Positions 30,809 to 49,141 of a stretch of DNA of 64,000 nucleotides are shown in pieces; the first letter of the stretch is position 1, and each line of letters begins with the position of its first letter. A model generated the notes under the pieces. The model did not search any database and was not told the origin of the DNA. It worked only from the letters and a program-made list of their open reading frames with translations. This stretch comes from Actinomycetota bacterium. Its GTDB lineage: Bacteria > Actinomycetota > Nitriliruptoria > Nitriliruptorales > Nitriliruptoraceae. Location of the stretch: the NCBI GenBank assembly GCA_019347575.1, contig JAHWKY010000025.1, forward strand, positions 1 through 64,000. Reading direction: 5' to 3'. A program made the translations under genes and the position numbers.

Positions 30809-30918
30809 GCCTGAACTCCGCATCGACACCCTCGCGGCCCCATCGGGTACGGCGAATGGCACATCGACGTGTCCGCGGGCGGAGGCGCGCACGCATGCGT
30901 CGAAGTCGCACCGTGGTG

Positions 30919-30937
30919 TCGTACGGCGTTCGTACGG
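30919..30937 (+). promoter_or_regulatory. Probable TacA operator
   Basis: Two TCGTACGG copies, each containing the palindrome CGTACG, repeat with an 11-base period just before the antitoxin start (30951). One helical turn between half-sites is typical for ribbon-helix-helix autorepressors. Confidence 0.5.
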
Positions 30938-30950
30938 GAAGAGGTCCGAG

Positions 30951-31984: not shown

Positions 31985-33826
31985 TCATCCAGGCGCATGG
32001 TCAACCGAGTAATCGCCCGCCGCCAGCTCGACCAATTGCCGGAAGCATTCGCGGAGCTGCTCGGGTACCTCATCGGGATCAGTGAGTCGCGTTGCGAGTT
32101 CTACGAGGCACTCGGTCTTGGTCGACGGTCCTTGTTCCGACTGCTCACGTGCTAGGGCGAGCAACTTGTTGCTGAACTTCCCCTCCCCTCTCAGCTCGCC
32201 GATGTCCGTCGGTTTCCAGTCTTCGCCGTCGCGTCGTGGCCAGGCCTCGTTGGCCGTGCGGGCCCATAGGTCGTCGGTGAACAGGTCCTCGATCTCGCCG
32301 GGATCCCCGAGCAGGTGCATCTGGTCGGGCCTGATGCCGACGGCGCGGAGCTTCTCGGGAGTGAACAGGCTCCTGGTAGAACGGTCCTGCGTCGAGTCGC
32401 GGTCGATGATGAACTGCACCTCGCGGTTGTGGCTGGCCAGCCACCGGGCAACGTCCAACGCCCCGCGGTTGTTGTTTCCGGCTATGAGAGCGATGCCGCT
32501 CGACTGAAGGCTCATGCCGACGACCAAGCGGAAGAGGATCGGGAGGGCCTGTGCCTCGGTTGACCCTTCCACGGCCACGAAGACGCGCTCGTGCAGTAGC
32601 ACGCTGTTGCGGAGCCCCATGGCCGCTGAGATGGCGGCGAGATGGCGGTTGACCTCCTGATGTTCGTCGCTGAGTAGGCGGCTCACACGGGTGTGGCCAT
32701 CGACGAGCTGCAGGTGCACAACGTCAGCGATGTCGACCTTGTCGATGAGGTTCAGTGAGTGGGTCGCCACGAGAACACGGACGCTGTCGCGGGTCGACTG
32801 GTCACGGATGAGCTCTACGAGGTCGCGCTGGTTGGCGTAATCCAGGTGGGTGTCAGGTTCGTCGTACGCGATAACCACGGCTCTCTCGCCCGGGTCGGCC
32901 AATAGGTCTCTGGTCCATTCCCACACAGCCAGGGTCATGCGACGACGACGCCCCGCGCCTGAGTACTCGAGCGGCACGTCGATCCCAGCTTGCGTTCCCA
33001 CGTGCACCGCAACCTGCTGGAAGCCTTCACGGAACGATACGGACGGCGACACATGGATGTCGACGAGCTCAGGGCAGCGACGGAGGACGTGAGCGCAGAG
33101 GTCATCGGCGGCGTCCTGAAGGCGTTGCTGGAGTTGCCGCTCAGCCTCCCTCACCTGACCCACGATGGAGTCCTCGTCCAGAAGTTGTTCGAACGCTCCA
33201 CGGAGTGCCTGGTGGATTTCACTCCGTAGTTCCGGCTCACGTGTCGACGAGAACCTCAGGAGTCGGGGCAGCCTCGATGTCAGCGCTGCTGGGGCCGGTA
33301 CCCACGCCTGAGTGGTCCCACCCGCGGCGGCGAGCGTGCGGAGAGGTTCACGCCACGCCTCCGGCCTACGTGCGTCGCCCGATGGTTCGACACCGAGTTC
33401 CTGGGCCCGCTGGCGCAGCTCGGTCCTGTTCAAGGATCCCAGGCCCCGAAGCAGTGGCTCCTGCGGAACGGTCGCGAACATCTCGTAGGTGTCGTGCTCC
33501 CCGTCTCGCCGCACCCTGCGTACGTCAATGCGTCCATCGTCCACAGCGAGCAGCTCCCGGTCCTCCTCCGTGAGGTCGAACGTGCCGATTACGGCAGTCT
33601 GGGTTGCGACCTCCAGGGTGATCGCCCCTTCGGCGCTCGTGGACGGAGTCCTCGTCAGGTCGTCGTCGCTCAATCGGTGATCACCTAACAGGTACCCCAG
33701 GGCATCAAGGCACGCCGTCTTCCCTCCGGCGTTCGCGCCCGTGAGCACGGTCGGCCGTCCGAGGGGTATGACGCCCGTCGCCGCGAGGCAGCGGAAGCCT
33801 GTCACCTCGAACGAGACGAGATTCAT
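31985..33826 (-). CDS. OLD-family ATPase/TOPRIM nuclease
   Basis: A 613-residue protein with an N-terminal ABC-type ATPase and C-terminal TOPRIM domain. Walker A is TGANAGGKT (~residues 29-37), the signature region YSGAGRRRRM, Walker B VVIAYDEPDTHLD, and the H-loop VATHSLNLI. TOPRIM motifs are VAVEGSTEAQALP (catalytic Glu) and IDRDSTQD (Asp-x-Asp type). OLD proteins are DNA nucleases, several of which work in phage defence (GajA and others). The gene begins 15 bases after the small upstream gene, without its own clear ribosome site, so it is likely coupled to it. Confidence 0.87.
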   Translation of the reverse strand: MNLVSFEVTGFRCLAATGVIPLGRPTVLTGANAGGKTACLDALGYLLGDHRLSDDDLTRTPSTSAEGAITLEVATQTAVIGTFDLTEEDRELLAVDDGRIDVRRVRRDGEHDTYEMFATVPQEPLLRGLGSLNRTELRQRAQELGVEPSGDARRPEAWREPLRTLAAAGGTTQAWVPAPAALTSRLPRLLRFSSTREPELRSEIHQALRGAFEQLLDEDSIVGQVREAERQLQQRLQDAADDLCAHVLRRCPELVDIHVSPSVSFREGFQQVAVHVGTQAGIDVPLEYSGAGRRRRMTLAVWEWTRDLLADPGERAVVIAYDEPDTHLDYANQRDLVELIRDQSTRDSVRVLVATHSLNLIDKVDIADVVHLQLVDGHTRVSRLLSDEHQEVNRHLAAISAAMGLRNSVLLHERVFVAVEGSTEAQALPILFRLVVGMSLQSSGIALIAGNNNRGALDVARWLASHNREVQFIIDRDSTQDRSTRSLFTPEKLRAVGIRPDQMHLLGDPGEIEDLFTDDLWARTANEAWPRRDGEDWKPTDIGELRGEGKFSNKLLALAREQSEQGPSTKTECLVELATRLTDPDEVPEQLRECFRQLVELAAGDYSVDHAPG

Positions 33827-33841
33827 CCGTGGGTCGTCACG

Positions 33842-34393
33842 TCAGACGCGGCGGATCGTGTGGTGACAGTTCGGGACGTTCGGCAGCGAGAACGCTGTCG
33901 GGTCGCCAGGCGCTGGCCAGTACTTGGCCCGATGCCCGTCGTAGACGCTACGCACCGAGACCACCTTGCCCTCCAACGCCACGCATTCGCGTGCCGGCTC
34001 CCAGAGTGGTTCCGCAGCGCGGTAGATCTGGCAGCGTTCGCTGCCCTCATCGAGCAGTCGAGCCGACAATCCCCGGACGTACCAGGTGTTGAACTCGTTC
34101 AGCCCGAGAAGACGAGCACGCTGGCTGACGTTGACTGCCCGCTCGCCCATGGAGCCACTCTTGCGACGGAACGCTTGGTGGGTCTGCCACAGTTCGGCGT
34201 GATCGAACGCGGCTGTGAGCGTGTCATCATCTTCGGATTCCAGCGCCACGCGAACGAGCTCGGCGAAGGAAGCTCGACCCGTCGGTGACAGGTCGGCCCC
34301 GACGAACGGTAGGGCGGTCGCCTGCTCAGTATCGAACTCCGCGATCATGCACTCACGGGTTCTGTCATCGAGTTCCTCGAAGCGCATCCCCAT
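33842..34393 (-). CDS. Small protein of unknown function paired with the OLD nuclease
   Basis: A 183-residue soluble protein. The ATG at 34393 follows GGAGGAG; the frame is open 54 codons further. The C-terminal half (LNEFNTWYVRGLSARLLDEG, CQIYRAAEPLWEPARECVALEGKVVSVRSVYDGHRAKYWPAPGDPTAFSLPNVPNCHHTIRRV) reads like the end of phage minor-capsid/Mu F-like domains, which finish with a Cys...LEG...PNCxH pattern. This likeness is by eye only. First gene of the operon behind promoter 34417-34444. Confidence 0.68.
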   Translation of the reverse strand: MGMRFEELDDRTRECMIAEFDTEQATALPFVGADLSPTGRASFAELVRVALESEDDDTLTAAFDHAELWQTHQAFRRKSGSMGERAVNVSQRARLLGLNEFNTWYVRGLSARLLDEGSERCQIYRAAEPLWEPARECVALEGKVVSVRSVYDGHRAKYWPAPGDPTAFSLPNVPNCHHTIRRV

Positions 34394-34416
34394 CGGCCTC
34401 TCCTCCTCACCTATTA

Positions 34417-34444
34417 GTACGGATGGCCGAGGTCTGCGGTTACG
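34417..34444 (-). promoter_or_regulatory. Shared promoter element, copy D (OLD operon)
   Basis: Minus strand: CGTAAC, 16 bases, CCGTAC, then TAATAGGTGAGGAGG, which runs straight into the ribosome site. 23 bases before the ATG at 34393. Confidence 0.8.
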
Positions 34445-34827
34445 GTGGGTTCTTTCCGTCGCGGAACTCCGCGTGAGGAGGCAGACGAGGGTCGCGCCGC
34501 TTTTCCGGCCAACGAGACCCTGGGACCGTTGCGGAGTCCCGTTCAGTCGTAACACCGTTCACGGCGATGGCTACGGGCGCGTCTCGACGATGGCATGCAC
34601 GAACCGGTGCTGTTGGACAACTACAGCACCCACCGCGACACCGACTCGCCCGGCCAAAGTGCTCCGCGATCCCTCAGCGCCTACCGCGGCCGCTGAAGTG
34701 GGGACTCCGTGACGCCAGGATCTCTCGGTCCCTCGATACGACGACGGCGTCATCGTGCTCCAAGAGGTGGCATACACGTTCCGGATTCGATTCATCCTGG
34801 CGATGGTCGAAATCGAGGTGATCCTCC

Positions 34828-35484
34828 TCAGACCTCCCATTCCCAGGTCACCGATACGACCGAGTTGTCCTCACCTTCGAGCGCGGGGCACCGAACCGTG
34901 CCCGTGGACTCGTCGGCGCCGAGCGTGATCTGGCACGGCTCGAGTGTTCTGGAGTAGGTCCGGGTCTGGCGGAAGTTCCCGGGGGTCAAGTCGGCGTCCG
35001 GGTCCTCAACCTCGGCCGTGATCAGGAACGCGTTGCTCAACTCGCCGGGCCCGGCGATCTCGTCCTCGTCCGCAGCCATCCCCTGGCCTGCGGGGATCTC
35101 GTAAGTCCCCTCCTCGCTGCGGGGACCGACGAGGTCGAACGCCAGGCGGAAGTGGCGGCTGTCGTCGATCGCCTCGAGGTTCTCCAGGCCGATGGACAGG
35201 AAGTGGAGGTCCGTTGAGAGCTCACCACCCGTGATGAGCAGTTCGACGTCGCTCTCCCATTCGAACTCCTCGTCCCCGGACACGGTGACCTGGAGGTGCA
35301 CCGGCTCCATTCGAGACGTGATCGGCCCCTCGGGCTGTGCCTCGCCCGTGGGCGTGGTGGCATCGGGTGTCGGGTCGTCCGTCGCCGTCGGCGACGGTGC
35401 GGGGCTAGCGGCTTCCTCGGACGCGGTACAGGCTGCGAGCGAAGCCAGTCCCGCGACCAGACAGAACGTCAGGGCCCGCCTCAT
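34828..35484 (-). CDS. Lipoprotein of unknown function, end of the SpaA/ABC operon
   Basis: A 218-residue lipoprotein. ATG at 35484 with GAGGGA upstream; signal RRALTFCLVAGLASLAACTAS with lipobox LAAC, then a Pro/Thr/Asp linker and a beta-rich domain (PVHLQVTVSGDEEFEWESDVELLITGG...VVSVTWEWEV). No family recognised. It lies 10 bases after the preceding lipoprotein gene. The gap from 34556 to 34827 holds no gene I can support. Confidence 0.72.
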   Translation of the reverse strand: MRRALTFCLVAGLASLAACTASEEAASPAPSPTATDDPTPDATTPTGEAQPEGPITSRMEPVHLQVTVSGDEEFEWESDVELLITGGELSTDLHFLSIGLENLEAIDDSRHFRLAFDLVGPRSEEGTYEIPAGQGMAADEDEIAGPGELSNAFLITAEVEDPDADLTPGNFRQTRTYSRTLEPCQITLGADESTGTVRCPALEGEDNSVVSVTWEWEV

Positions 35485-35494
35485 CGGTGATCCC

Positions 35495-36118
35495 TCACGA
35501 GCCATCTGCACACCCTTCGGCTGTCGCGACCTCGAACCGACCGTGTCCGAAGCCGGTCCGCTTGCCGTCGTTCGAGGAAGCCATCACCCCGAGGTTCGCC
35601 TCACCCGGCGGAGCTGTGGGCGGTACCACGATGAGCCACACGTACCGGCCGGCGCTGTCGGTCTGCGCGAAGTGCAGCGCACCGTGTGGGTCATTGTCCG
35701 AGTAGGCACCCACCATGACAAGGCCAACCTCCGGTGCGGTCGTGATGGTCGCGGCAACGGTCTCGCCGTTGCGAACGCAGCCCGGTTCGGTGACGACCTC
35801 GACGGGCAGTTCGTTGGGGTCCTGCGTCGGCTGCTCCGCGCCAGGCTCCGATCGGTCGGTTTCCGGTTTGCTCGGGACGACAGGCATTTCTGGTGGTGCG
35901 TCCGGAGCGACGGGCGGAGCCGAGTTAGCCATCACATCAGGCGGCTCGGTGACGTCGATGCTGGCATCGGGCGTTGGGAGATCCGAGAGCGTCGGGCTCT
36001 CCAGCGCGATCAAGTCGGGTCCGTCAGCGCCTGCGTCGAGGCCGTCAGCAGAGGAGCAACCAGCGAGAACGACCGTGAGTCCAACGAACGTGGCGACGAC
36101 TCGGTGCCCGATCCTCAC
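35495..36118 (-). CDS. Lipoprotein of unknown function, next to LivF
   Basis: A 207-residue lipoprotein with signal ATFVGLTVVLAGCSS, a long Pro/Asp/Glu-rich stalk, and a small C-terminal domain (VTEPGCVRNGETVAATITTAPEVGLVMVGAYSDND...YVWLIVVPPTAPPGEANLGVMAS) that looks Ig-like. GTG start shares GTGA with the livF stop, so it belongs to the ABC operon. It may be an accessory surface component. Confidence 0.72.
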   Translation of the reverse strand: MRIGHRVVATFVGLTVVLAGCSSADGLDAGADGPDLIALESPTLSDLPTPDASIDVTEPPDVMANSAPPVAPDAPPEMPVVPSKPETDRSEPGAEQPTQDPNELPVEVVTEPGCVRNGETVAATITTAPEVGLVMVGAYSDNDPHGALHFAQTDSAGRYVWLIVVPPTAPPGEANLGVMASSNDGKRTGFGHGRFEVATAEGCADGS

Positions 36119-36897
36119 GCTTCCACCGCCCCGTTCTGGGGCCCTCCGGAGGCCACATCGTGTAAATCAGGTGACTCGTGGCCACTCCCCCCCAGGTACG
36201 ACTCGAGCAGCTCGGGGCTCTCCCTCAACTCGCTCGAGGGACCTTCCATGACGACCTTCCCCTTCGCCAGCACGTAGGCCCGGTCCGTGTGGCGGAGTGC
36301 CATGTCGACGAACTGCTCGACGATGATCACGGCGGTGCCCTCACTGTTCACCTGCTCGATGATCTCGAACAGCAGCGCCACGATCTTCGGCGCGAGACCA
36401 AGGGACAGCTCGTCGACCATGAGCACCCGGGGCTTGGACATCAGCGCACGGGCGACGACCAGCATCTGCTGCTCGCCACCCGACATCGTCGCCGCAGCCT
36501 GCTTGCGACGCTCCTCAAGGCGGGGGAACAGCTCGAAGACGTGCTCGAGCTGGGGGCCGTAGAGTTCGGGCTCCTTGTGTCTTGGCCAGAAGCCGAAGCG
36601 CAGGTTCTCCTCGACCGTCAAGCCCGGGAACAGCTCGCGACCCTCAGGACCATGGGCCACACCGTGTTGAACGACGTCGTAGGCCGGCAGGCCCTGGATG
36701 TCGTCGCCGTCCAGGACGATCGTGCCCTGGCTCGGCGCCATCATCCCCGAGATGGCGCGGAGCGTGGTCGTCTTGCCCGCTCCGTTCGTCCCAAGCAAAG
36801 CGATGCGCTCGCCCGAATCGACGTGAAGCGAGACGCCCCGCAGGGCCACGATGGGTCCGTAGGAGACGTGGATGTCGGCGACTTCGAGCAGTGCCAT
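36115..36897 (-). CDS. livF: Liv-type ABC transporter ATP-binding protein
   Basis: A 260-residue ATPase of the hydrophobic amino acid uptake family. Walker A LLGTNGAGKTT, Q-loop region, signature MSGGEQQML, Walker B VLMVDELSLGLAP, and VAHGPEGRELFPGLTVEENL, typical of LivF. Start overlaps the stop of the LivM-LivG gene (TGATG). It would pair with the ATPase half of the fusion. Substrate cannot be told from the sequence. Confidence 0.9.
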   Translation of the reverse strand: MALLEVADIHVSYGPIVALRGVSLHVDSGERIALLGTNGAGKTTTLRAISGMMAPSQGTIVLDGDDIQGLPAYDVVQHGVAHGPEGRELFPGLTVEENLRFGFWPRHKEPELYGPQLEHVFELFPRLEERRKQAAATMSGGEQQMLVVARALMSKPRVLMVDELSLGLAPKIVALLFEIIEQVNSEGTAVIIVEQFVDMALRHTDRAYVLAKGKVVMEGPSSELRESPELLESYLGGSGHESPDLHDVASGGPQNGAVEA

Positions 36898-39122
36898 CAG
36901 GATCCCACCGTCTCTGGCTCGCTCACGCCGAGGTAGGCGGCGATCACATCGGGGTTGCGCTGGATCTCCCCCGGGGTGCCCTCCGCGATGATCGCCCCCT
37001 GGTTCAGTACGTAGAGGTAGTCCGTGACAGATGTGACCATGCGGATGTCGTGCTCGATCAGCAGCAGCGTCGCGCCCAGGCCACGAACGAAGCGGAGCAC
37101 GTCCATCAGCTGGTCGGTCTCTCGCTCGTCGAGGCCCGACGCGGGCTCATCGAGCATGACGACACGGGCGCCGCTGACGAGGGCTCTGGCCACCTCGACC
37201 ATCCGCAGCACGCCGAAGGGCAGGCCGGCTACGAGACGCTGCGCGACATCGCCAAGGTCGAGTAGCTCGATGACCCTGCGGACTCGGGCTCGGGCTCGGG
37301 CTTCCGCCTCAAGGGCCTGTGGGGTCACGGCCATGTGCTGGATGAAGCCGGTGGCGTTCTGCAAGTGCGTCGCCGCAAGGAGGTTCTCGAACACGGTCAG
37401 CTGTCCGAACAGCTGGATGAGCTGGAACGTCCGGGCCACGCCGAGCTCGGCGCGCTGGTGCACCGGCAGCCCGGTCACGTCGACGCCGTAGAGCCGCACG
37501 GTCCCCTCGGTGGGCTGGTTGTACCCGGCAATCGCGTTGAACAGCGTCGTCTTGCCTGCGCCGTTGGGGCCGATGAGGCCCGTGATCTCCCCTTCGCGGA
37601 CCGTCAGCGACGCGTTGTCAACGGCCGTCAGTCCACCGAACCGGACGGTGATCTGGTCGGCCTCGATCAGTGCCGCGCGCTGATCGCGGGGCACCGTGCC
37701 GACGCTGCTGGTCGTCTCCCCATCGTGGGTTCGCTCGATCTGGGCGAGGGAGGAAGCGGGGCGGTGGCCGTTCCCGCTCGGTTCGCTCACTGCCGACGCG
37801 AGCCCTCCACCTCCGGACGCAACATCAGCGGTCGGATGGTCTGCTGGCTGATGATCAGCCGTGACGAGGCGGTCGAGTTCGAGCACGGGAGGTACCCGTT
37901 CGTCGCGGCTCCGGCGAGCCAGGCGCCGGTGCAGGACGGCGACGGTCAGCGCCAGTCCGCGGAGGAGCCGGTGCCGCGCTCGAGGGACCGCGGCGGCGAG
38001 CCGACCGGCGGGCACGGCCTCGATCTCCACCGTGTCCGTGGAGGCTTCGTCCACCGTGTCCCCGGAGGCTTCCTCAGCCGACGACGGGGCTGGTTCCTCG
38101 GTTGGGGGGTCCTTCGCACCCGTCTCAGCGATGACGATGAGCTTCTCCACCGCCTGTCCGCCCCGGCGCCGCAGGTCACGCCAACGCTCGCCCATCGACG
38201 CCGCGAGCGCGGCGAGACCTCCCGGGTAGGCGAGGAAGACCGCCGCGAGCAGTCCCGCCGAGACGAGCTGGAGGAACTCGTTCAGGAAGGTGACCCGGAA
38301 GAAGACCTCCTCGAGCGCCGCGAAGACGAAGGCCGCCGCGACCGCGCCTCCGAGGCTCAGAAGGCCGCCGACGACCGCGATGGCCAGGAAGAACAGCGAC
38401 CCGGTGAAGTCGAACGCATCCGGGCTGACCACGCGGCTGTGCGTGATCATGAGGTTCCCGGCGATCCCGGCCATGGCACCCGACAGCGCGAAGGCGAGCG
38501 ACTTGTAGCGCAGGACGTTGACGCCGAGCGACGCGGCGGCCATCTCGGAGCCGCGTATCGCGTAGAACGCACGGCCGGTCTTGGAGTCGCGCAGGTTCAT
38601 GAGGGCGTACAGGAGCGCGATGGCGACAGCCCACGCCACGAAGTAGTAGACGCGTCGCGAGCTGAAGTCGAGCGACAGCAGCGTGCCCGGGGTCCCGATG
38701 GCTTGAGGTGGCACGCTGGAGTTCGCCAGCAGCCATTCCTGCCTGAACAGGAACTCGCTCGCGGCCCAGGAGAAGATCAACGTCGCCACCGCGAGGTACA
38801 GGCCGCGAACGCGGAGTGCAACCACACCCAGCACGCCTGCCACCAGTCCGGCCACGACCACGGCGACCGGCATGCTGAGGGGGAACGTCAGCCCCAGTCG
38901 CCCCGCGGCCCACCCGGTCGCGTACGCCCCGACCCCCACGAAGGCGGCGTGCGCGAGCGAGATCTGCCCGACCCACCCGGTGAGCAGGACCAGGGACGAC
39001 GCGACGATCGTGAATGTGGCCGCCTGGGCCGCGCTGCCGAGGAGGTCGCTGGTACCTGGGAGGAACGGCAGGATCACCAGGCCGGCGAGCAGCACCCCTT
39101 GCAGTTGCCTCTGCCTACCCAT
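36897..39122 (-). CDS. LivM-LivG fusion: ABC permease joined to its ATPase
   Basis: A 741-residue protein. Residues ~1-330 are a LivM permease (QISLAHAAFVGVGAYATGWAAG, LRVRGLYLAVATLIFSWAASEF). A ~150-residue charged linker, ending near TTSSVGTVPRDQ, follows. From ~484 comes a LivG ATPase: GLIGPNGAGKTTLFNAI, FGVLRMVEVARALVS in place of the usual signature, and VVMLDEPASGLD. The ATG at 39122 overlaps the livH stop (TGATG). Such fusions are known in some actinobacteria but the long linker is notable. Confidence 0.88.
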   Translation of the reverse strand: MGRQRQLQGVLLAGLVILPFLPGTSDLLGSAAQAATFTIVASSLVLLTGWVGQISLAHAAFVGVGAYATGWAAGRLGLTFPLSMPVAVVVAGLVAGVLGVVALRVRGLYLAVATLIFSWAASEFLFRQEWLLANSSVPPQAIGTPGTLLSLDFSSRRVYYFVAWAVAIALLYALMNLRDSKTGRAFYAIRGSEMAAASLGVNVLRYKSLAFALSGAMAGIAGNLMITHSRVVSPDAFDFTGSLFFLAIAVVGGLLSLGGAVAAAFVFAALEEVFFRVTFLNEFLQLVSAGLLAAVFLAYPGGLAALAASMGERWRDLRRRGGQAVEKLIVIAETGAKDPPTEEPAPSSAEEASGDTVDEASTDTVEIEAVPAGRLAAAVPRARHRLLRGLALTVAVLHRRLARRSRDERVPPVLELDRLVTADHQPADHPTADVASGGGGLASAVSEPSGNGHRPASSLAQIERTHDGETTSSVGTVPRDQRAALIEADQITVRFGGLTAVDNASLTVREGEITGLIGPNGAGKTTLFNAIAGYNQPTEGTVRLYGVDVTGLPVHQRAELGVARTFQLIQLFGQLTVFENLLAATHLQNATGFIQHMAVTPQALEAEARARARVRRVIELLDLGDVAQRLVAGLPFGVLRMVEVARALVSGARVVMLDEPASGLDERETDQLMDVLRFVRGLGATLLLIEHDIRMVTSVTDYLYVLNQGAIIAEGTPGEIQRNPDVIAAYLGVSEPETVGS

Positions 39123-40009
39123 CAGCCCAACCCGCTGCTCTGCTCGGCGCCCGCGAGCTGCTGGCCCCGCAGCGCCATGACTATGAGACCGACGACGGCG
39201 AGGAACAGCTGGGCCGAGCCCTGGACCGTCCCGAACACCGGGAGGAAGGGCACGAGCCCGACGACGACCCCGACGACCGCCCCTCCCACGAGCGCACCGG
39301 TCACGCTCTCGAGTCCGCCGATCAGCGCAGCGAGGAACCCCGGCAGTGCCGACAACGGGAGCGAGTACGGCTGAAGCACAGTGATCGCGGCGAGCAGGAT
39401 GCCGGCGATGCCGGCGAGCGCCCCACCGATGACCCACGTCAGGGCGGTCATGCGTTGCGGGTTGACCCCCATGAGCGCAGCGGCGGTGGGGTTCTCGGCG
39501 GCGCCGCGCATAAGCAGGCCGAGGTCGGTGTACTTGAACAGAGCCGTCAGGAGCCCGAAGATGACCAGCATGCTGAAGAACAGGCCGAGCTCACCCACGC
39601 GGATGCCCGAGAGCCCGACAGGGATGAACACGTCGGGGAAGACACCGACGGCGGTCAGTGCGGAGGTGCCCCAGACCTGGGCCATGATGGCGATCGCGAG
39701 TCCGAGGACGACCACGGTTCCGACCGTCTGCGCCGTCGCCCCCTGCTTGCGGAAGGGCCGGACGAAAATTCGCTCGACGAGCCAACCCAGCGCACCCCCG
39801 GATGCGATGGCCAATGGAAGCGCGACGAGCGCCGGCAGCCCCAAGGCGACCAGCGTGTACAGCACGTAGGCAGGCAGCGTCGCCATGACGCCGTGAGCGA
39901 GGTTGAGCACCTTGGAGGCGCGGTAGATCAGCACGATGCCGATGGCGAAGATGGCGTACACGCCGATCAGCGGCAACGACAGCACGATGGCTGTGAGGTA
40001 CGTGATCAC
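39122..40009 (-). CDS. livH: Liv-type ABC transporter permease
   Basis: A 295-residue permease with about eight helices: GVYAIFAIGIVLIYRASKVLNLAHGVMATL, the typical LivH start, and LGLLMRGAAENPTAAALMGVNPQRM. It lies between the substrate-binding protein and the LivM-LivG fusion. Confidence 0.9.
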   Translation of the reverse strand: MITYLTAIVLSLPLIGVYAIFAIGIVLIYRASKVLNLAHGVMATLPAYVLYTLVALGLPALVALPLAIASGGALGWLVERIFVRPFRKQGATAQTVGTVVVLGLAIAIMAQVWGTSALTAVGVFPDVFIPVGLSGIRVGELGLFFSMLVIFGLLTALFKYTDLGLLMRGAAENPTAAALMGVNPQRMTALTWVIGGALAGIAGILLAAITVLQPYSLPLSALPGFLAALIGGLESVTGALVGGAVVGVVVGLVPFLPVFGTVQGSAQLFLAVVGLIVMALRGQQLAGAEQSSGLG

Positions 40010-40051
40010 GAGGGGTCCTGGGCGTTCATCGTCAGCGTCGCTCCTGGCGGT

Positions 40052-41788
40052 CTAGAGGCTGGGGTCGCGGATCCAGCCCGTGTCGAGGTACCTCCACCCG
40101 TTGAAGCTCCCGCCCGTGGCCTCGACCTGGAAGGCCTGTGCGAACTTGTTGGCGTGGTGCTGGTTGGGCCGCCAGACGAGCGTGTTGGCGAGATCGGTCT
40201 GGAAGTCCATCGCATCGAGCTTCTGACGCAGGCACGCGCGTGTGAGGTTGGGCGAGCACTTTTTGACGGCGTCCACGAAGACCTGCGTGCCCAGGTAGGC
40301 GCCCTCGACGAACTGGTTGTTGAAGTCGACGCTGGGCTGCACCCGACGCACGTCCTCGACGTACTTCTTGACGCCCGCCTTGTTGCTAACCGGGGGGATT
40401 GAGGGGTTGTAGCCGGTCCAGACCCGCATCTTGTCGCACCAGCTCTGGCACTGGCTGGCGAAGGCGTCCGTGAACAGGGTCTGTGCGCCGTAGGTCGTCT
40501 TGCCGCGGCCGGAGAACGTCCCGGAGTTGGCGTTGCGCCACTTGATCGCGGTCTCGGGGACGAGGAGCAGCGCGACCATGTCGCAGTCCGAGCTGCTGGA
40601 GGTGTTGTTGCAGTCGCCGTTGAACTTGGCCGCCTCCGAGTTGTACGTGTCCTGGTCGGGGTTGATCGGCATGTCCGCCTTGACGGACGCGCCGGGGAGC
40701 GTCTTGACGTAGTCCTTGAACGCGGTCGCCCCCTCGATCCCGAACTTGAACTTGCTGTCCCAGACGATGCCGAGCGAGCGTGCGCCGTCCTTGTCGTAGG
40801 CGTACTTCGCCATCGACCGCATCACCGACAGCGTGGCGGAGGCGACCGGGAACACCCAGGGTTCGCGGTACTCATCGATGCGCAGTCCGGTGGTGCCGAC
40901 GACCGGGATGCCCTCCTTGGAGATCAGGCCGGCCTGGATCGCGGCTGCCAGTCCCTCCGACGACGGCACGACCAGGAGCGCGAACTTCCCCTCCTCGATG
41001 AACCTTCGGATCGCGTTCTGTCCGCGCGCCGCGTCCCAACTGTCGTTGAACGGCTCGAACTTGATCTGGCGACCACAGATCCCACCGGCTGCGTTGACCT
41101 GGTTGAGCACCGCCTGGATTCCAACCGTCGCCGGCTTGAGCAGACTGGCACCCGGGCCGTCGTTGACGACGGTCGCGGCGACCTTGATCTCGGTGGCGGT
41201 GACGCCCTTGTCCGTCGCGCCGCCGTTGTTGGCCCCGCACGACGCATCCCCTGTTCCTGACGAGCCGGTCGTGCTGCCGCTTCCCGTCGTCGAGGATCCG
41301 GAGGAGACATCCAGGCCGGTCGATCCGCTGCTTGACGAACCGGTCGACGTACCCGTGGACGAGCCTCCGCTCGTGCCGCCGGTGGTGGTGCCCCCTGTTT
41401 CTCCGTCGCCGCCACTCGTGGCCGAGGGGCCGCCACCCGTCCCCGACGTGCCGCCCGTGCTGGAGGACCCCGCCGAGCCGCCCGTGCCTGCTGTGCCTGT
41501 GCTCGTCCCGCCCGTGGAACTCCCACCCACGAGCGCCTCGATGTCGAGCGGCCCGCCTTCGGTGCCGGGCCCGATGGCGCCCTCGACGACGTCGGAGGGC
41601 AGCTCGAACGTCTCTCCGTCGCCGGGGAGCTCGCCGGTGACGGTCGCGCCGGGACCGCTACCGGCCGCGCTCGCGACGCCACGCGGTGCGAACTCGACCA
41701 TGGAGAACGCGCCGAGCATGGCACCGGCGACGAAGGCCGTGAGGACCTTGCCGGCGGAGGACGCTGGCGGGGGTGGGATCATCGTCAT
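40052..41788 (-). CDS. Liv-type substrate-binding protein on a long Gly/Ser/Thr stalk
   Basis: A 578-residue periplasmic-binding-type protein (Peripla_BP_6). Instead of a lipobox it has an N-terminal membrane segment (VLTAFVAGAMLGAFSMVEFAP). A ~130-residue stalk almost wholly of Gly, Ser and Thr (SSTGGTSTGTAGTGG...) follows, then the binding domain (DKGVTATEIKVAATVVNDGPGASLLKPATVGIQAVLNQVNAAGGICGRQIKF). It should deliver its ligand to LivH/LivM. The stalk could carry it through a thick wall or be glycosylated. It starts 32 bases after the SpaA gene. Confidence 0.87.
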   Translation of the reverse strand: MTMIPPPPASSAGKVLTAFVAGAMLGAFSMVEFAPRGVASAAGSGPGATVTGELPGDGETFELPSDVVEGAIGPGTEGGPLDIEALVGGSSTGGTSTGTAGTGGSAGSSSTGGTSGTGGGPSATSGGDGETGGTTTGGTSGGSSTGTSTGSSSSGSTGLDVSSGSSTTGSGSTTGSSGTGDASCGANNGGATDKGVTATEIKVAATVVNDGPGASLLKPATVGIQAVLNQVNAAGGICGRQIKFEPFNDSWDAARGQNAIRRFIEEGKFALLVVPSSEGLAAAIQAGLISKEGIPVVGTTGLRIDEYREPWVFPVASATLSVMRSMAKYAYDKDGARSLGIVWDSKFKFGIEGATAFKDYVKTLPGASVKADMPINPDQDTYNSEAAKFNGDCNNTSSSSDCDMVALLLVPETAIKWRNANSGTFSGRGKTTYGAQTLFTDAFASQCQSWCDKMRVWTGYNPSIPPVSNKAGVKKYVEDVRRVQPSVDFNNQFVEGAYLGTQVFVDAVKKCSPNLTRACLRQKLDAMDFQTDLANTLVWRPNQHHANKFAQAFQVEATGGSFNGWRYLDTGWIRDPSL

Positions 41789-41820
41789 GGGACCGGATCT
41801 CCTGAGGTACGGGGCGTGGA

Positions 41821-44800
41821 CTATGCGGCGAGGAGCCAGAGGACCAGCCTGCGGCGCCAGGCTCCTGCAACGGCGGCGCCGAACACCAGCGTCAGACCGC
41901 CGAAGGCCGCAGCCTCCTTCGGTTGACGCAGCAGGAGTCGGGCCGCGTCACCCGGCGACTGGATGATCTGCACGAGCGTCGTCGGCCCCTGGCTGCTCGG
42001 TGCGACGACCGGTGCGGCTGGTCCAGGTGCCTGCTGCACGGTCACGACCGGTTGCGTCGGCGGGAGTGCCTCCTCGAACACAACCGGCGGAGCCTGCTCC
42101 GAAGGAGCCTCCGGTTCCACCCCGGCCGCTGGCGGAGGCTGAGTCGGCGTTTCCGACGGCGCAGCCGCGCCCTCGTCGCCAGCCTCACCCATCGGACCGT
42201 TCACGAGGTTGGCCCGGGCGATCTGACCTTCTCCCAGGTCGAAGCCGACGTCGTCCGTGGGCTGGTACCCGGTCGGTGCGGAGGCCTGATGGATCACGTA
42301 GGCGCCGGGCGGCACGGTCAAGAGGGTGGTGGAGCCATGGCCAAGTTCGTCGGGCGGGACGATCGCGTCGACGACCTCCGGCGCCGAGGCCTCCGGCACG
42401 AACACGCATCGTCCCTGCGCATCGGTCGTGCACGTGGCCACGCGCACATCGCCTGCGCTCCTGGCGTGGTCACCGTCGTCGGCGTGGATCTCGAGGACAC
42501 CGCCGGGGAGTGGGTCACCATCGGTGTCACTGAGGTTGACGGCGATGCCGGTCAGCGCGAGCTTCCCGTTCACGACGTCGACGCGACCAACACCTCCCGA
42601 GGGAACCGTCACCGGGACGGGATCCTCGGTAGGCACGTACCCAGCGGGAGCCGCGACCTGCGTGACCACGTAGCTCCCTGCTGGTATCGAGCTGAACTCG
42701 CAGGCCCCCGCCGTCGTGGTGCAGGTCCGCGGCGGGAGGAGCGACTCCTCGATCCCGATGGCGCCATCGCCCTCGAGGTCGGTGTTTACGTTGAAGACGC
42801 CGCCGTCCAGCGGAAGCCCCTCAGGGTCGGAGAGGTGGATGGATAGCGAGGCGGACTCCTGCGCGCACTCACCGTCGATGATCTCCAGCAGGCAGATGAT
42901 CCCGTACGTGACAGACGTCTCGACGCCTGCGAACTGGTAGATCTGCCGCTGACGACCACGACGGCCGTCCCCGACACGCACCACCTCCAGGGCGGGAACG
43001 GTGGGGAGGTCGTCGTTCTTGAGCGTTTGGTCGGCGAACTTCTCAGTGTCCGGCTTCTGGATGGCAGCCTCGAATCCATCGTCGGCTCCGGCCGCCTGTT
43101 CGGCACTGGGGCGTCGGACAGTCACGGTGAAGCCACGTCCGAGAGCGGCCTGCATGGCCGCCACCATGCGCTCCTGGTTCTCTTCGGTTTCGCACTGCTC
43201 GCACGTGAACGTCTCCCCAGTTGGTCCTGTCACTGTGACCCCGCTGAACGTGACCTCGAAGCACGAACCAGCTGATCGCCTTCTGTCGCAGTTCGGATCG
43301 TCAAGAAGACCCACGGGTTGGCTACGGCCAGTCGCCCACGATTCGGCCTGGGCCTTCACCGCGTCGATCCGTGCAACGCCCTGGTCGCCGATGAGTTCGA
43401 CGCCTCTCGCGACCGATGTGATGCGGGCGACGACCCCACCGTCTGGCAAACGCTCCACTCGGAATACCGATGACGCCTCGGCAACACTGGCGGCATCGGC
43501 TTCCTCGGGGCCGCGCAGGGCGGCTTGACTCCACCCGTTCACCGAGGCGGCACCACACGAGACCTCCGCCGCGAAGCCTCGCAGGATCTCATCCCCCTGC
43601 TTGTCGGTAGTGCGATCTGGTGCCGAGCACGTAGCGGTCGCGAACTGTTGGTCCCATTGGACCGTGGGGGCCAGTTCGTCCGGTCGGTCCCGCACCCCGA
43701 GCTTGCTCAATTCCGCGCCGACATCGACTGCGCGCTGGCACTGCATGCCCGGCCGCGCGAGGAGGTCCTTCGTCGCGTCGTCGGCCCAAGCACTGGTTGC
43801 ATCGGCTGTGGCCGTACCCAGGTCATCCAGTACCGGCGGGTTACTGGGCACGAGGGAACCGCTGAGACCGAGTACGAGCTCCCGATCGAACGCCGTGCAC
43901 GGCGTTGTGGCGTCAACTCCAGCATTGCGGAGACTTTCTTGAGTCGTCTCTAGCCAGAACGTCTGGTCGACGGCCCCTTCGTTCACGGCTCCGCCGATTC
44001 CTCGCACCAGGATTGATCTGAATCCGTAGCCACGCGCCGTGCCGGTGTAGACAATATCCGTGGCGCCGGGTAACTCCGGCACGTCGTGAGTACGCAGCGT
44101 TGCCAGTGAGCCGCTGGACTCAGTTGCCTTGAATTCGAGACCGTCATCCTGAAAGACGAGCCAGTGGGGCGCCCACCGTGTACTCGGGGGCGCCTGCGCA
44201 CCTGGTCTGATGAAGACGCGCGCCGGCCTCCCGTCCATGGCAGGGTCGATATGTATTGGCATGGTGTTGCTCGCGAACGCCTCCCCGGCGAACGCGGTCA
44301 AGCGCACACCCTGGTCCACCTTCTGGCTGCGGCCGTCGCTGACCAGCAGGCCGCCAGGCTCGGGCGGACGCGCCCCTTCATGCTGGGCGCGGCGTGGAGC
44401 CAACGTGTAGACGAATCCCGTGGAGGGGTCGATCCCCCCGGTGGTCTCGACCTCGTTGTAGCGGCCGATACCTAGCTGACCGAGGTAGTTGGAGGCGTGG
44501 CCGTCGAACACCCACCACGACACGCCAGAGGTTCGGGCACTCTGGAGGTGGATCCGCTCGGCAGATGGGTCAGCGAGGACGCGGATGACCTGGAGCGGCC
44601 CCGGGAAGCGGTCCTGACGTATGGTAGGGCTCTCCGCGTCAGGGGACTCGTCCAGCACGATCCGGACGACCCATGCGGTCCCGCCCGCTCCGAAGCAGCT
44701 CACGTAGACGAACGGCCGGTTTGCATCGGGGGCGCGGAAGACCGCGTAGGCGTCTCCCATGCTCGTACATGCCTCAAGGCGGACGATCCAGTCGTGCTCG

Positions 44801-45492
44801 CCTGAGGCCGCGTCGATCTGAACCGCCCAAACGAGGTTCGCCCGCTCAGGGTTGGGGCCGCGGTTGTCCTGGATCACCATGTGGAGCTTGCCGGTGTCCT
44901 TGGGGCTCCGGGGCGCTGAGTACGCCATGGCCTGCAGGTCCGGAGAGACGATAACGCCATCCGTGCCGGCAGGCTGGAACGGCAGGCGATCGACTGTCTC
45001 TAGCGTCGCCGCATCGAGGACATAGAAGCCTCCGAGAGGCCCGATACCCTGCGTCACTCCGGCTGTCCGGTAAGGCACGAACAACCGCCCGCCTGCCTCG
45101 TCGACCACAACGCTGTCGAAGTCCGCTGGCGCCTCCCTCTCACTGGGGTCGTCCCGGCCGAGGGGTTCGAACGTGTCGAGATCGAAGACGAGCAGCCCGT
45201 CGCCGCCGGCCGCGGCGTCGGCGCGCTGATATGCCCTCCGTCCCGTGACCCAGAGCGCGAGGTCTGACGCGTCCGTTGCACCCGCCAGGAGCGGCAAGCG
45301 CTCGTCCAGGAGTCGGATCCTTTCGGAGCCGGGACTGCCACCCTCTGGCGGTTCGCCGACCTCCTGGCCGCTCGCAGGCACGGTGAAGACGAACATCAGC
45401 GCGACCAGGACCAACACCACGCTGCTGCCCATGGCCCGAGACGCGACGTGGTGCGATGCGCCGGTGCGACTCCTGCGCTTACGTTCACCCAT
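41821..45492 (-). CDS. Large surface protein with SpaA-like repeats and C-terminal membrane anchor
   Basis: A 1223-residue exported protein. Signal peptide at residues 20-43. A long N-terminal region has propeller-like pieces (RLFVPYRTAGVTQ..., GGFYVLDAATLETVDRLPF, AMAYSAPRSPKDTG). Two SpaA/prealbumin-type domains lie at about 880-1090, each with the typical end (GSYVVTQVAAPAGYVP; GAYVIHQASAPTGYQP). A Pro/Ala stalk and a final membrane helix with basic tail (FGGLTLVFGAAVAGAWRRRLVLW) follow. No LPXTG is seen. First gene of an operon with the Liv transporter. The ATG at 45492 follows GAGGA. Confidence 0.82.
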   Translation of the reverse strand: MGERKRRSRTGASHHVASRAMGSSVVLVLVALMFVFTVPASGQEVGEPPEGGSPGSERIRLLDERLPLLAGATDASDLALWVTGRRAYQRADAAAGGDGLLVFDLDTFEPLGRDDPSEREAPADFDSVVVDEAGGRLFVPYRTAGVTQGIGPLGGFYVLDAATLETVDRLPFQPAGTDGVIVSPDLQAMAYSAPRSPKDTGKLHMVIQDNRGPNPERANLVWAVQIDAASGEHDWIVRLEACTSMGDAYAVFRAPDANRPFVYVSCFGAGGTAWVVRIVLDESPDAESPTIRQDRFPGPLQVIRVLADPSAERIHLQSARTSGVSWWVFDGHASNYLGQLGIGRYNEVETTGGIDPSTGFVYTLAPRRAQHEGARPPEPGGLLVSDGRSQKVDQGVRLTAFAGEAFASNTMPIHIDPAMDGRPARVFIRPGAQAPPSTRWAPHWLVFQDDGLEFKATESSGSLATLRTHDVPELPGATDIVYTGTARGYGFRSILVRGIGGAVNEGAVDQTFWLETTQESLRNAGVDATTPCTAFDRELVLGLSGSLVPSNPPVLDDLGTATADATSAWADDATKDLLARPGMQCQRAVDVGAELSKLGVRDRPDELAPTVQWDQQFATATCSAPDRTTDKQGDEILRGFAAEVSCGAASVNGWSQAALRGPEEADAASVAEASSVFRVERLPDGGVVARITSVARGVELIGDQGVARIDAVKAQAESWATGRSQPVGLLDDPNCDRRRSAGSCFEVTFSGVTVTGPTGETFTCEQCETEENQERMVAAMQAALGRGFTVTVRRPSAEQAAGADDGFEAAIQKPDTEKFADQTLKNDDLPTVPALEVVRVGDGRRGRQRQIYQFAGVETSVTYGIICLLEIIDGECAQESASLSIHLSDPEGLPLDGGVFNVNTDLEGDGAIGIEESLLPPRTCTTTAGACEFSSIPAGSYVVTQVAAPAGYVPTEDPVPVTVPSGGVGRVDVVNGKLALTGIAVNLSDTDGDPLPGGVLEIHADDGDHARSAGDVRVATCTTDAQGRCVFVPEASAPEVVDAIVPPDELGHGSTTLLTVPPGAYVIHQASAPTGYQPTDDVGFDLGEGQIARANLVNGPMGEAGDEGAAAPSETPTQPPPAAGVEPEAPSEQAPPVVFEEALPPTQPVVTVQQAPGPAAPVVAPSSQGPTTLVQIIQSPGDAARLLLRQPKEAAAFGGLTLVFGAAVAGAWRRRLVLWLLAA

Positions 45493-45554
45493 CGATCAAA
45501 TCCTCGGCCCTAGCCGGTTCTCTGCGGCGGCACACTTTCCACCCTCACTAACTA

Positions 45555-45582
45555 GTACGTACGAGAACGGCTATTGGTTACG
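45555..45582 (-). promoter_or_regulatory. Shared promoter element, copy E (SpaA/ABC operon)
   Basis: Minus strand: CGTAAC, 16 bases, ACGTAC (one change in the -10), then TAGTTAGTGAGGG. 62 bases before the ATG at 45492. It should drive seven genes down to 34828. Confidence 0.75.
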
Positions 45583-45639
45583 CGGGATGCTGAGCTGTCC
45601 GGTGCCTTTGTCCCGCCAGAGGTCCGTACTGGAGAAGGT

Positions 45640-45672
45640 CTTGGGGGCCGGGCGCATGGCCCGGCCCCCAAG
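45640..45672 (-). terminator. Strong GC hairpin between secreted-protein gene and promoter E
   Basis: Perfect 14-base arms (CTTGGGGGCCGGGC and complement) with a 5-base loop, 45 bases after the stop of the gene at 45718 and just upstream of promoter E. It should insulate the SpaA operon from upstream transcription. Confidence 0.7.
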
Positions 45673-45717
45673 AAGGGCTACCTCACGCTCCCGCCTGGGG
45701 AGCGAGCATTGCTCGCG

Positions 45718-46452
45718 TCAGACCGCTGCCGCGACCCCACGAACGTTGAAGACACCAGCTGTCCCAGCAGCACAATCGGCTGCTAGACCCGCGCCGAACG
45801 CCTGTACCAGCGCGACCAGGGTGCCGTTGCCATCCGCAGTCGCGTCGGCCGGGTTGTCTTGCCAGTGCGCGGTCACCGGCAGGATGCTGCCGGCGCTGGC
45901 GAGCCAGCCGATGCCCTCGAGGATGTGGTCGTTGCCGGCCCCGTCCGTGTACCCAGTGTTGTCGAGGGCGAGGTTGCCGTGGCCAGCGTAGCCCTGCGAG
46001 AAGCCACACCACGGTCCGAGGTTCTCACCACCCGGGGACGCAACGGCCCCCAGCTTCCCTTCGGCCGAGATCACGCAGTCAGCGGGACCCGCGCCATCGC
46101 CGTTGCCGCCCACGATCTCGGCCAAGTCCTTGCAAACGTCCGTGCTAGCGTTGACGTCCGGATTGCCCGGGATGAACGCGCTGTTCCCAAGCGGAGTCCC
46201 GCAGGGGTTCTGGCCCACGCACTCGAGCCCGCCACCGGTGGGGGCCCCAGCGGCGAACGCCCAGTCGGACGGGCCGGCAGGGGTGGGCAGCCCTGGCAGG
46301 CCGATCGTTGGACCACCGACCACGGCGTCGCCCTGGAAGACCAGGACGTGGCGAAGCTCATCCCCGCTGTGTGCGCCGGCTGGCAGGGCACCTGCGACCA
46401 TCAAACCTGCGACCAGGCCAGCGGCTGATGCAACTCGAATCTTCGTTTTCAT
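45718..46452 (-). CDS. Secreted protein of unknown function
   Basis: A 244-residue exported protein: signal peptide RVASAAGLVAGLMVAGALPAGAHS, then a Gly/Asn/Asp-rich domain with six or more cysteines (LECVGQNPCGTP, TDVCKDLAE, PADCVISAEG, WCGFSQG, AADCAAG) that suggest disulphides. No family recognised. GGAG lies 9 bases before the ATG at 46452. No copy of the shared promoter is seen upstream. The 305-base gap 46453-46757 contains only a weak GGGGAA-N4-TCACCC site at 46630-46645. Confidence 0.7.
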   Translation of the reverse strand: MKTKIRVASAAGLVAGLMVAGALPAGAHSGDELRHVLVFQGDAVVGGPTIGLPGLPTPAGPSDWAFAAGAPTGGGLECVGQNPCGTPLGNSAFIPGNPDVNASTDVCKDLAEIVGGNGDGAGPADCVISAEGKLGAVASPGGENLGPWCGFSQGYAGHGNLALDNTGYTDGAGNDHILEGIGWLASAGSILPVTAHWQDNPADATADGNGTLVALVQAFGAGLAADCAAGTAGVFNVRGVAAAV

Positions 46453-46757
46453 GTTCGTTGGCTCCTCAGCTTGCGGGGTATCGTTCGGGTTCAGTTAGCG
46501 AGGCACCTACCTATCGGCAACGTCATCCCCGCGCCATGACGTGCTGGTCCAGTAGCCCGCAAGCGGGACATTCGCACAACCGCTTCATGCTGCGCGTCAC
46601 CCGACCGGGGGAGATTGACTCGCGGGAGGGGGGAATAGCTCACCCACCGATCCGAGCATCCATCAACGTCAGGTCCCGATGCTGTGCAAGATCCGCCTAA
46701 CAGACAGACGGTGAACGGCATCCCCCCGCGACAACTGACGGCGCTGAAGTGGGTCGC

Positions 46758-47528
46758 TCAGCTCGTCTCGAGCGGCGTGAAGTCCGACAAGGAAGGAGGC
46801 TCGATGTTGAATACCATGCCGGAGGGCACCTCGGCGGTGTCGTAGACGAACATCGTCTCGTCGCCCGTCCTGAGCGGAGCGATGTGCAACCGGATTGTGT
46901 GCTCCGCATCCGCATCGATGTCTGCCCCCTGCGCGAGCATGGTCGGATAGACGCCAATGAAGGCGAACCGCACAGTGGGAACCTCACCGGTAGCGGCGTC
47001 CACGGTGACCTTCGTCCCGTTGCCGCCGGTCGTCTCGAAGTACGGGTTGCCGTCGATCGTCAACTGGAGGACGGTATCGAAGTCGGGCAGCAACGTCTGG
47101 AGCGCCTGCCGGTTCGGTGAGACGAAATGCAACGTGACCGCGAGGTTGTCGATCGGGCCTGTGAAGGTTCCTTCGAACGTGGGGCCACCGGCAGGGTGGA
47201 ACTTCGTGCCCGCCTGGGGTGGAAGGTTGTGCAGGATATTGAGGCCGACGTATCCTGCACCACCGTCGGGAGCAGCGGCTGGTGCGTCGGTGGACCAGGT
47301 CGGCAGTTCTTCGACGAGCGCGCCCGCGTTGCCAAACCTCGCAACAGGCTCATCCGTCTCAGGCGCGTGGAACCACGTGTCGACCCTGCACACCACGACA
47401 TCGTCCTCGTGATCGTCAGGATCCCTAGCATCGATAACGCGGCAGTCGTCGGGTACATGCGCGGCGACGAGCGGAACGAAGAGCGCTGGCGCTGTGACCA
47501 GCGCGGTGATGAACCTGTAGGTCTTCAT
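46758..47528 (-). CDS. Secreted protein of unknown function
   Basis: A 256-residue exported protein. The ATG at 47528 follows GGGAGA; the signal is KTYRFITALVTAPALFVPLVAAHV. The mature part is beta-rich (VGLNILHNLPPQAGTKFHPAGGPTFEGTF, VTLHFVSPNRQALQTLLPDFDTVLQLTIDGNPY) and acidic. No family recognised. Single gene behind promoter 47577-47604. Confidence 0.72.
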   Translation of the reverse strand: MKTYRFITALVTAPALFVPLVAAHVPDDCRVIDARDPDDHEDDVVVCRVDTWFHAPETDEPVARFGNAGALVEELPTWSTDAPAAAPDGGAGYVGLNILHNLPPQAGTKFHPAGGPTFEGTFTGPIDNLAVTLHFVSPNRQALQTLLPDFDTVLQLTIDGNPYFETTGGNGTKVTVDAATGEVPTVRFAFIGVYPTMLAQGADIDADAEHTIRLHIAPLRTGDETMFVYDTAEVPSGMVFNIEPPSLSDFTPLETS

Positions 47529-47576
47529 GGTTTCTCCCACATGTACGTGGCGGCACCGCCGCCCCCTCATCTAGTA

Positions 47577-47671: not shown

Positions 47672-48301
47672 TCACGCCAGGCCGCGCTTCTTCGCCTCGG
47701 CGGCGAGCTTGGCGCGGCCACGGATGTCGAGCTTGGTCATGATCGCGCGGACGTGGCTCTTGACGGTCTCGGTGCCGAGTCCGAGCTGCTCGGCGATCTG
47801 ACGGTTGGTCATGCCGCGCGCCAGGTGCTCGAGGACGCGCATCTGCTGCAGCGTCAGGCCGTGGGGGCCCTTGGCGCGCTTGCCCTTCGTGGCGAGCTCG
47901 ACGAGCTTGCGCGCGAGCAGCGGGTCCACGTAGGTCCCGCCGCCGGCGGTGGCGTGGACGGCGTGGCGCAACAGGCTCGGGGACGATTGCTTGACCACGA
48001 AACCCTTCGCCCCGGCCCCGAACGCGGCCAGCATGATGGGCTCGGTGTCGTACTCGCTCAGCACCACGACCCGGGCCGTGGGCTGCGCCTCGCGGATCTT
48101 GATGATGGCCTGCGCCCCGCTGATCCCCGGAAGGTGGAACTCCACGAGCACGACCTCGGGATGCTTGCGGCGGATGTCGAGCATCGCCGACTCGACGTTC
48201 TCGGCCCGCCCGACCACGTGGATCCGGGGATCCATGGTGAGCAGCTTGACGGTGCCGTCGCGCTCGACGCTGTGGGCGACTATGACCACCACGTTGGTCA
48301 C
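47672..48301 (-). CDS. NarL/LuxR-type regulator with phospho-site Asp replaced by Glu
   Basis: A 209-residue two-domain regulator. GTG at 48301 follows GGAGG by 6 bases. The receiver starts VVVIVAHS, so the acidic pair is lost. The acceptor is glutamate (VVLVEFHLPGISG), while the lysine remains (GFVVKQSSP). The LuxR HTH is good (LTLQQMRVLEHLARGMTNRQIAEQLGLGTETVKSHVRAIMTKL). The Glu may mimic phosphorylation and leave it always active. A GTACGC box at 48401 with a weak -35, plus a GGGTGA site at 48458, may be its promoter region. Confidence 0.85.
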   Translation of the reverse strand: MTNVVVIVAHSVERDGTVKLLTMDPRIHVVGRAENVESAMLDIRRKHPEVVLVEFHLPGISGAQAIIKIREAQPTARVVVLSEYDTEPIMLAAFGAGAKGFVVKQSSPSLLRHAVHATAGGGTYVDPLLARKLVELATKGKRAKGPHGLTLQQMRVLEHLARGMTNRQIAEQLGLGTETVKSHVRAIMTKLDIRGRAKLAAEAKKRGLA

Positions 48302-48457
48302 GTCTTCCCTCCGCGCTGGCCAGCGCACCCGCGCGGGGCGCGCGCGTGCGAGCGCGCCCCGCCCCCGTCCGCGGACGCGGGTACGCACTCCACCCCCCGT
48401 GTACGCGGACGCCGACCCGGCGGCTTCCACCGTCCGGGGGGCCGACGCCGACGACCC

Positions 48458-48474
48458 GGGTGAGGTACTCCCCC
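48458..48474. promoter_or_regulatory. Imperfect GGGTGA operator upstream of the 47672 regulator
   Basis: GGGTGA-GGTAC-TCCCCC, one base longer spacer than the consensus. It lies 57 bases upstream of a GTACGC box (48401). Confidence 0.4.
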
Positions 48475-48503
48475 GTCGATGACCGGCAGCGCTCACGCCC
48501 ACC

Positions 48504-49133
48504 TCACACCAGCCCCTTGCGACGGATCACGTCGACGGCTTCCTTGCGGTCGGACACCTCGAGCTTGCGCAGGGCCTTGCGCAGGTGGCTCTTGACGGTC
48601 TCCTCGGCGATGCCGAGCTGGAGCCCGATCTGGGCGTTGGTCGCCCCGGACGGCAGGTACTCCAGGACGCGCCGCTCCTGCGACGACAGGCCGAACGGGC
48701 CGCGGGTGCGCCGCCCCGCCATCGCATGCGACACCAGCCGCCCCGCGATCTTGGGGTCGATGAACGTCCCGCCGGCGGCGACGCACCGGACCGCCTCGCG
48801 CATGACGGCCGGCTCGGACTCCTTGACGAGGAAGCCGTGCGCACCGGCGGTGAAGGCCTCCGTGACGGTGGCATCACGGGGGAAACTGGTGAGCACCACG
48901 ACGCGGCAGCGGCCGTCGCGCTCGCGGAACGACCGGCACGCGTCGATGCCGCTGATGCCCGGCAGGCGGTAGTCGATGACGACCACGTCCGGCTTCTCGA
49001 CCGCGAGTGCCGACATCGCGTGCTCCGCCGTGTCGTGCTCGCCGACGATCTCGAAGTCGGGCTCGTCCGACAGGACCGTCACCAACCCCTCACGCACGAT
49101 GGGGTGGTCGTCGATCACCACGATGCGGACCAC
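48504..49133 (-). CDS. NarL-type response regulator, intact receiver
   Basis: A 209-residue response regulator. All phosphorylation residues are present: IDDHPIVREG, the acceptor in VVIDYRLPG, threonine in VVLTSFPRD, and lysine in GFLVKESEP. The HTH is LSSQERRVLEYLPSGATNAQIGLQLGIAEETVKSHLRKAL. The GTG at 49133 follows TAGGAG, overlapping the end of the histidine kinase gene 8 bases upstream, so kinase and regulator are a coupled pair. Confidence 0.9.
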   Translation of the reverse strand: MVRIVVIDDHPIVREGLVTVLSDEPDFEIVGEHDTAEHAMSALAVEKPDVVVIDYRLPGISGIDACRSFRERDGRCRVVVLTSFPRDATVTEAFTAGAHGFLVKESEPAVMREAVRCVAAGGTFIDPKIAGRLVSHAMAGRRTRGPFGLSSQERRVLEYLPSGATNAQIGLQLGIAEETVKSHLRKALRKLEVSDRKEAVDVIRRKGLV

Positions 49134-49141
49134 GGCCACTC

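Follow-up and report, generated by a model that had tools for sequence, protein, structure and literature searches.

A large anchored surface protein encoded with a Liv-type transporter in a conserved Actinomycetota cassette

In Gram-positive-type bacteria, ligands must cross a thick wall to reach a membrane-bound binding protein. Contig C25 of an actinomycetotal genome (4.9 Mb, about 70% GC) carries a large surface protein gene at the head of a Liv-type ABC transporter locus, and the question is whether this protein works with the transporter or simply lies beside it. The window analyzed here comprises the first 64,000 nucleotides of this contig, in which an initial annotation had read seven consecutive genes as encoding a surface complex with its own import or sensing function. 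That interpretation is partly supported: gene order is conserved, phyletic distributions match, and the surface protein co-evolves with the binding protein, all of which speaks for a partnership with a Liv transporter of its own.

Gene layout and importer components

The run of seven genes from the SpaA protein to two lipoproteins is present as originally described, extending along the minus strand from 45,492 to 34,828 with junctions that overlap or span at most 43 bp. The first gene (41,821-45,492) encodes a 1,223-aa secreted, C-terminally membrane-anchored surface protein, hereafter CORE. After 32 bp comes a Liv-type substrate-binding protein (SBP; 40,052-41,788) with an N-terminal transmembrane (TM) or signal segment and a Peripla_BP_6 domain (E 2e-38) behind a Ser/Thr/Gly-rich stalk of roughly 140 residues; we found no lipobox in this SBP. 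A LivH-type permease gene (BPD_transp_2; 39,122-40,009) follows 42 bp later, and its stop codon overlaps, in a TGATG, the ATG start of a 741-aa LivM-LivG fusion of permease and ATPase (36,897-39,122; BPD_transp_2, ABC_tran, and BCA_ABC_TP_C domains). The LivF ATPase gene (ABC_tran; 36,115-36,897) overlaps the fusion gene by 1 nt and, through a 4-nt ATGA, the gene for lipoprotein 1 (LP1; 35,495-36,118; LAGC lipobox and a small beta-type C-terminal domain, kept in cassettes). Lipoprotein 2 (LP2; 34,828-35,511; LAAC lipobox) likely starts at an internal ATG at 35,484, which would leave a gap of about 10 bp after LP1.

A gene for a 244-aa secreted protein, UP244 (45,718-46,452, minus strand), directly precedes a very stable terminator-like hairpin (45,618-45,720, minus strand; -56.6 kcal/mol, z -4.8) that separates it from CORE. 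It is plausible that a transcript starts at this hairpin region; the "promoter E" placed upstream of the cassette in the initial annotation does not read as a sigma-70 site. No convincing internal promoter separates the SpaA gene from the transporter: the sole promoter-like match, a weak sigma-70-like site at 35,721-35,693 (one found against 0.8 expected by chance), lies inside the LP1 gene. UP244 resembles the protein encoded just upstream of CORE in three other genomes (G085, G071, and G074), weakly when the window's own row is left out (E 0.007), and is probably a relative of it; its claim to be an eighth cassette gene is slight. In these three genomes (loci L021, L025, and L036), what lies directly upstream of CORE is another Liv operon, distinct from that of the cassette and equipped with an SBP of its own.

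With a Peripla_BP_6 SBP, two BPD_transp_2 permeases, and two ABC_tran ATPases encoded together, the locus has the full complement of a Liv-type importer, and the ATPases have kept both Walker motifs (A and B) and the Liv-type signature. The components nevertheless score far below the curated cut-offs for amino acid and urea equivalogs (243 of 362 bits for LivG, 220 of 441 for LivF, 68 of 379 for LivH, and 22 of 477 for the SBP). An attempt to assign a substrate from SBP residues was abandoned, the SBP family matching amino acid SBPs in the PDB only partially. Among cassettes, LivM and LivG are fused almost everywhere, and in many of them a single frame of about 1,000 aa encodes LivH, LivM, and LivG together (995 aa at L022:1649-4636).

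Conservation and co-inheritance of the cassette

When 150 related genomes were searched with CORE as the query, strong matches came from remote branches of the phylum, and none from the same family was a credible relative of the CORE body; the whole protein gave no match against the genome contigs. Further loci were found by scanning with the SBP alignment, and searches outside the phylum used strict peptide patterns. All homologs come from genome assemblies, many of them metagenome-assembled. In total, 22 cassette loci occur in 10 Actinomycetota genomes, several of which hold two to five copies. The seven-gene order, whose recurrence elsewhere had been proposed as a check, indeed recurs as CORE-SBP-LivH-M-G-F-LP1-LP2, although LP1 and LP2 are missing or unrecognized in several cassettes. 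CORE lies directly upstream of the SBP gene in 17 of the 18 loci whose contig reaches that far (at the exception, L054, it sits after LivF), the remaining four being cut by contig ends. SBP and Liv proteins of the window are roughly 46-68% identical to those of other cassettes versus 28-49% to those of other Liv sets. The gene set is therefore real and conserved, and its neighborhood is more than chance.

Phyletic distribution tells the same story. In a 396-genome sample of the phylum, a close SBP occurs in seven genomes and CORE in the same seven; an eighth, weak CORE match (G099) comes from a smaller protein whose gene adjoins a different Liv set. By class, CORE is found in 3 of 5 genomes, 3 of 3 (one of them the weak G099 match), 2 of 247 and, in the window's own class, 1 of 66. 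The LivGs of the cassettes group in a single clade (SH-aLRT 92), separate from other Liv paralogs even where these come from the same genomes, and the tree requires one change against 10.7 when shuffled. Pairwise distances of the C-terminal domain of CORE (CORE_C) correlate with those of the SBP at r = 0.84 and with those of LivH, LivM, LivG, and LivF at only 0.40-0.59; with the mean Liv distance regressed out, the CORE_C-SBP correlation is still 0.73 (P 0.0002). Judged by these trees and distances, CORE, SBP, and transporter are inherited as one cassette, within which CORE co-evolves most tightly with the SBP. Since this correlation stands above those with the transporter subunits, the SBP is CORE's likely partner. 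Co-evolution of this kind can also arise without contact, through shared regulation or a shared niche, and both proteins are fast-evolving and extracellular.

As for origin, third-position GC (GC3) is lowered over a block that spans the cassette and its neighbors (0.74-0.90 over 31,985-47,570, against 0.91-0.94 in the genes from 47,672 on), whereas the tetranucleotide signature stays within the genome's own range. Horizontal acquisition is likely given the reduced GC3 and the isolation of the cassette in its own class, and stays short of proven because tetranucleotide usage is unexceptional. We rejected a misbinning of the contig, as its single-copy ThrS is 79% identical to that of a genome of the same family (G004). 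The surroundings hold other genes of interest. An OLD/GajA-like AAA-TOPRIM ATPase (PADLOC GajA, E 9e-25) and an adjacent 237-aa orphan without family match (31,985-34,555, minus strand) form a candidate defense pair, and the frame at 30,639-31,505 (plus strand) looks by eye like an antitoxin and GNAT-toxin type module in one, with no PADLOC or NCBIfam match. Upstream of the cassette on the minus strand, a GAF-histidine kinase and four LuxR-type regulators stand in a row (47,672-52,732), and two large adjoining secreted proteins are encoded at 52,870-60,256, the first with Calx-beta and CW_binding_2 domains and the second with similar exchanger- and S-layer-type NCBIfam matches.

The surface protein and its smaller relatives

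CORE comprises a propeller-like N-terminus, a choice-of-anchor-P-like domain (about aa 633-868), two SpaA stretches from about aa 890 (PF17802, E 4e-13; best aa 892-976), a Pro-rich linker, and a C-terminal TM segment followed by RRR. Among 14 aligned members, only L064 has a SpaA pair comparable to that of the window protein. By this alignment, the SpaA repeats are optional and peripheral rather than a conserved part of the family, and the label "SpaA-type surface protein" is apt for a surface protein that bears SpaA domains and misleading insofar as it makes an optional stalk the defining part. What remains constant is the signal peptide, an N-terminal motif region, conserved cysteines, a C-terminal beta domain, and the C-terminal TM segment with its basic tail. 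All 17 C-termini inspected end in a hydrophobic segment with basic residues and none has an LPxTG sortase signal, and from these sequence features CORE is predicted to be secreted and membrane-anchored. In G074, CORE (L036, on the same contig as L023) is split into two overlapping frames, the result of a frameshift or of faulty sequencing.

Blade-like D-x-x-x-GR-[LV]-[YF] and W-x-FD motifs recur in the N-terminal region, from which we infer a beta-propeller. The AF2 model of this region is poor (mean pLDDT 48), and a CORE profile found nothing credible among PDB sequences (weak Lp49 match, E 0.93). Foldseek matches of the whole CORE body to porins and sortilin were dismissed, the underlying AlphaFold model being of low confidence. 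The C-domain modeled alone reached moderate confidence and had no fold match in the structure search.

Apart from SpaA in the window protein, no Pfam or NCBIfam family covers CORE, which also gives no match to choice-of-anchor P (NF040603, cut-off 27 bits). However, outside CORE itself, a CORE_C-only profile run over 12,795 ORFs matched almost exclusively choice-of-anchor-P-type proteins. Smaller proteins with the CORE-type domain and anchor adjoin Liv operons in several genomes, usually right after LivF: on contig C19 of the same genome (L020), in G006 of the same family (L070), and in G113, G074, G088 (more than one locus), and G099 (two loci); G411 shows other arrangements. In these proteins, as in CORE, signal peptide, Pro-rich linker, and C-terminal TM segment are all present, and the C19 protein sits right at the NF040603 cut-off (27.0 bits, or 27.5 in a second run). 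Comparison by hhalign of CORE_C with this Liv-adjacent set gave 92.7% (E 4.3e-7), with controls near zero; at this profile level, CORE_C is a remote homolog of their domain. The premise that Liv transporters are not linked to surface proteins thus does not generally hold in this phylum, where the same anchored domain lies beside other Liv operons. Strong full-length choice-of-anchor-P matches in the same sample have no adjoining Liv operon, a split between weak, linked and strong, unlinked proteins (Fisher 3e-9) that was noticed post hoc and is descriptive. With an assumed background of 6%, the proximity of the smaller proteins to Liv genes has P 0.004.

A putative partnership at the cell surface

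We lean, by a modest degree, toward a dedicated Liv-type importer with an added surface module, in which CORE would capture a ligand or present it to the SBP. CORE would sit in the membrane through its C-terminal helix and reach into or through the cell wall, and its propeller-like part and choice-of-anchor-P-like domain would capture, unload, or present to the stalked SBP a ligand possibly bound to a larger carrier beforehand. The SBP would then dock on LivH-LivM and ATP hydrolysis by LivG and LivF would power uptake, while the two lipoproteins would assist as binding or scaffold subunits. Extra reach may come from the window's SpaA repeats and long SBP stalk, acting as spacers.

The main rivals are purely structural and sensing roles. 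Surface adhesins and pili are where SpaA domains typically occur, and choice-of-anchor families are generic surface domains, so CORE might be an adhesin or a structural component of the envelope, co-transcribed with an ordinary importer but taking no part in transport. We consider this unlikely, since members of the family can do without SpaA, CORE and the SBP are virtually never found apart, their co-evolution exceeds the transporter background, and the related smaller proteins are Liv-linked as well. Less probable again is a sensing complex, in which CORE and the SBP recognize a ligand outside the cell and the transporter passes on the signal, perhaps to the neighboring two-component genes upstream. 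Such a role would suit the tethered rather than free SBP and the GAF-histidine kinase and several LuxR-type regulators on the same strand, but these regulators differ in GC3 from the cassette (0.91-0.94 against 0.75-0.90), were not seen, in an unsystematic look, in the cassette neighborhoods of other genomes, and accompany ATPases whose motifs are intact, as for transport. Chance insertion of a surface gene upstream of an ordinary branched-chain amino acid importer is very improbable: the Liv components are unmistakable homologs and the genome has many such systems (32 LivMG matches), yet the order is conserved at 22 loci with one LivG clade and matched distribution, and the components fall far below the curated amino acid LivG, LivF, and LivH cut-offs, the SBP barely matching the amino acid model.

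Beyond the dedicated importer, the smaller proteins raise a broader, more tentative possibility, to which we give somewhat less than even chances: an undescribed class of Actinomycetota importers in which choice-of-anchor-P-like membrane-anchored proteins are general outside partners of Liv transporters, as a small form beside LivF and a large propeller form in the cassette, with ligand passing from the surface partner to the SBP across the wall. If so, CORE and the smaller Liv-adjacent family would be a new accessory class of ABC importers, a "choice-of-anchor" surface domain would gain a function, and part of the large Liv paralog expansion in these genomes would be accounted for. We know of few accessory surface partners of ABC importers, namely AztD and ZinT-like proteins, which act on zinc, and found no description of the CORE-Liv arrangement in open-licence papers.

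Among known systems, Liv/HAAT transporters (LivJ/K-LivHMGF, with the urea relative Urt) share with the cassette the two BPD_transp_2, two ABC_tran, and Peripla_BP_6 components in standard order. The cassette differs from them in falling under every curated equivalog cut-off, in its fused LivM-G (often LivH-M-G) and tethered or stalked SBP, and in its obligate large surface protein and two lipoproteins. Choice-of-anchor P proteins (NF040603) resemble CORE through its remotely homologous C-domain, although some of their unlinked weak matches carry LPxTG whereas the Liv-linked ones have a plain TM segment. The window CORE shares two SpaA domains with SpaA/prealbumin-like surface proteins (PF17802); unlike the sortase-anchored ones, it lacks LPxTG, and SpaA is clear in only one other cassette member. 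The nearest precedent for such a relay is AztD: the gene for this beta-propeller accompanies aztABC, and the protein hands zinc directly to AztC, the SBP (PMC6689063). AztABC is a zinc-type cluster A-I importer, not a Liv one, and CORE, much larger, C-terminally membrane-anchored, and without NCBIfam match, is not a member of the AztD family. What the two systems have in common is an extracytoplasmic protein, a propeller in AztD and a putative one in CORE, that is encoded with an importer and paired with its SBP.
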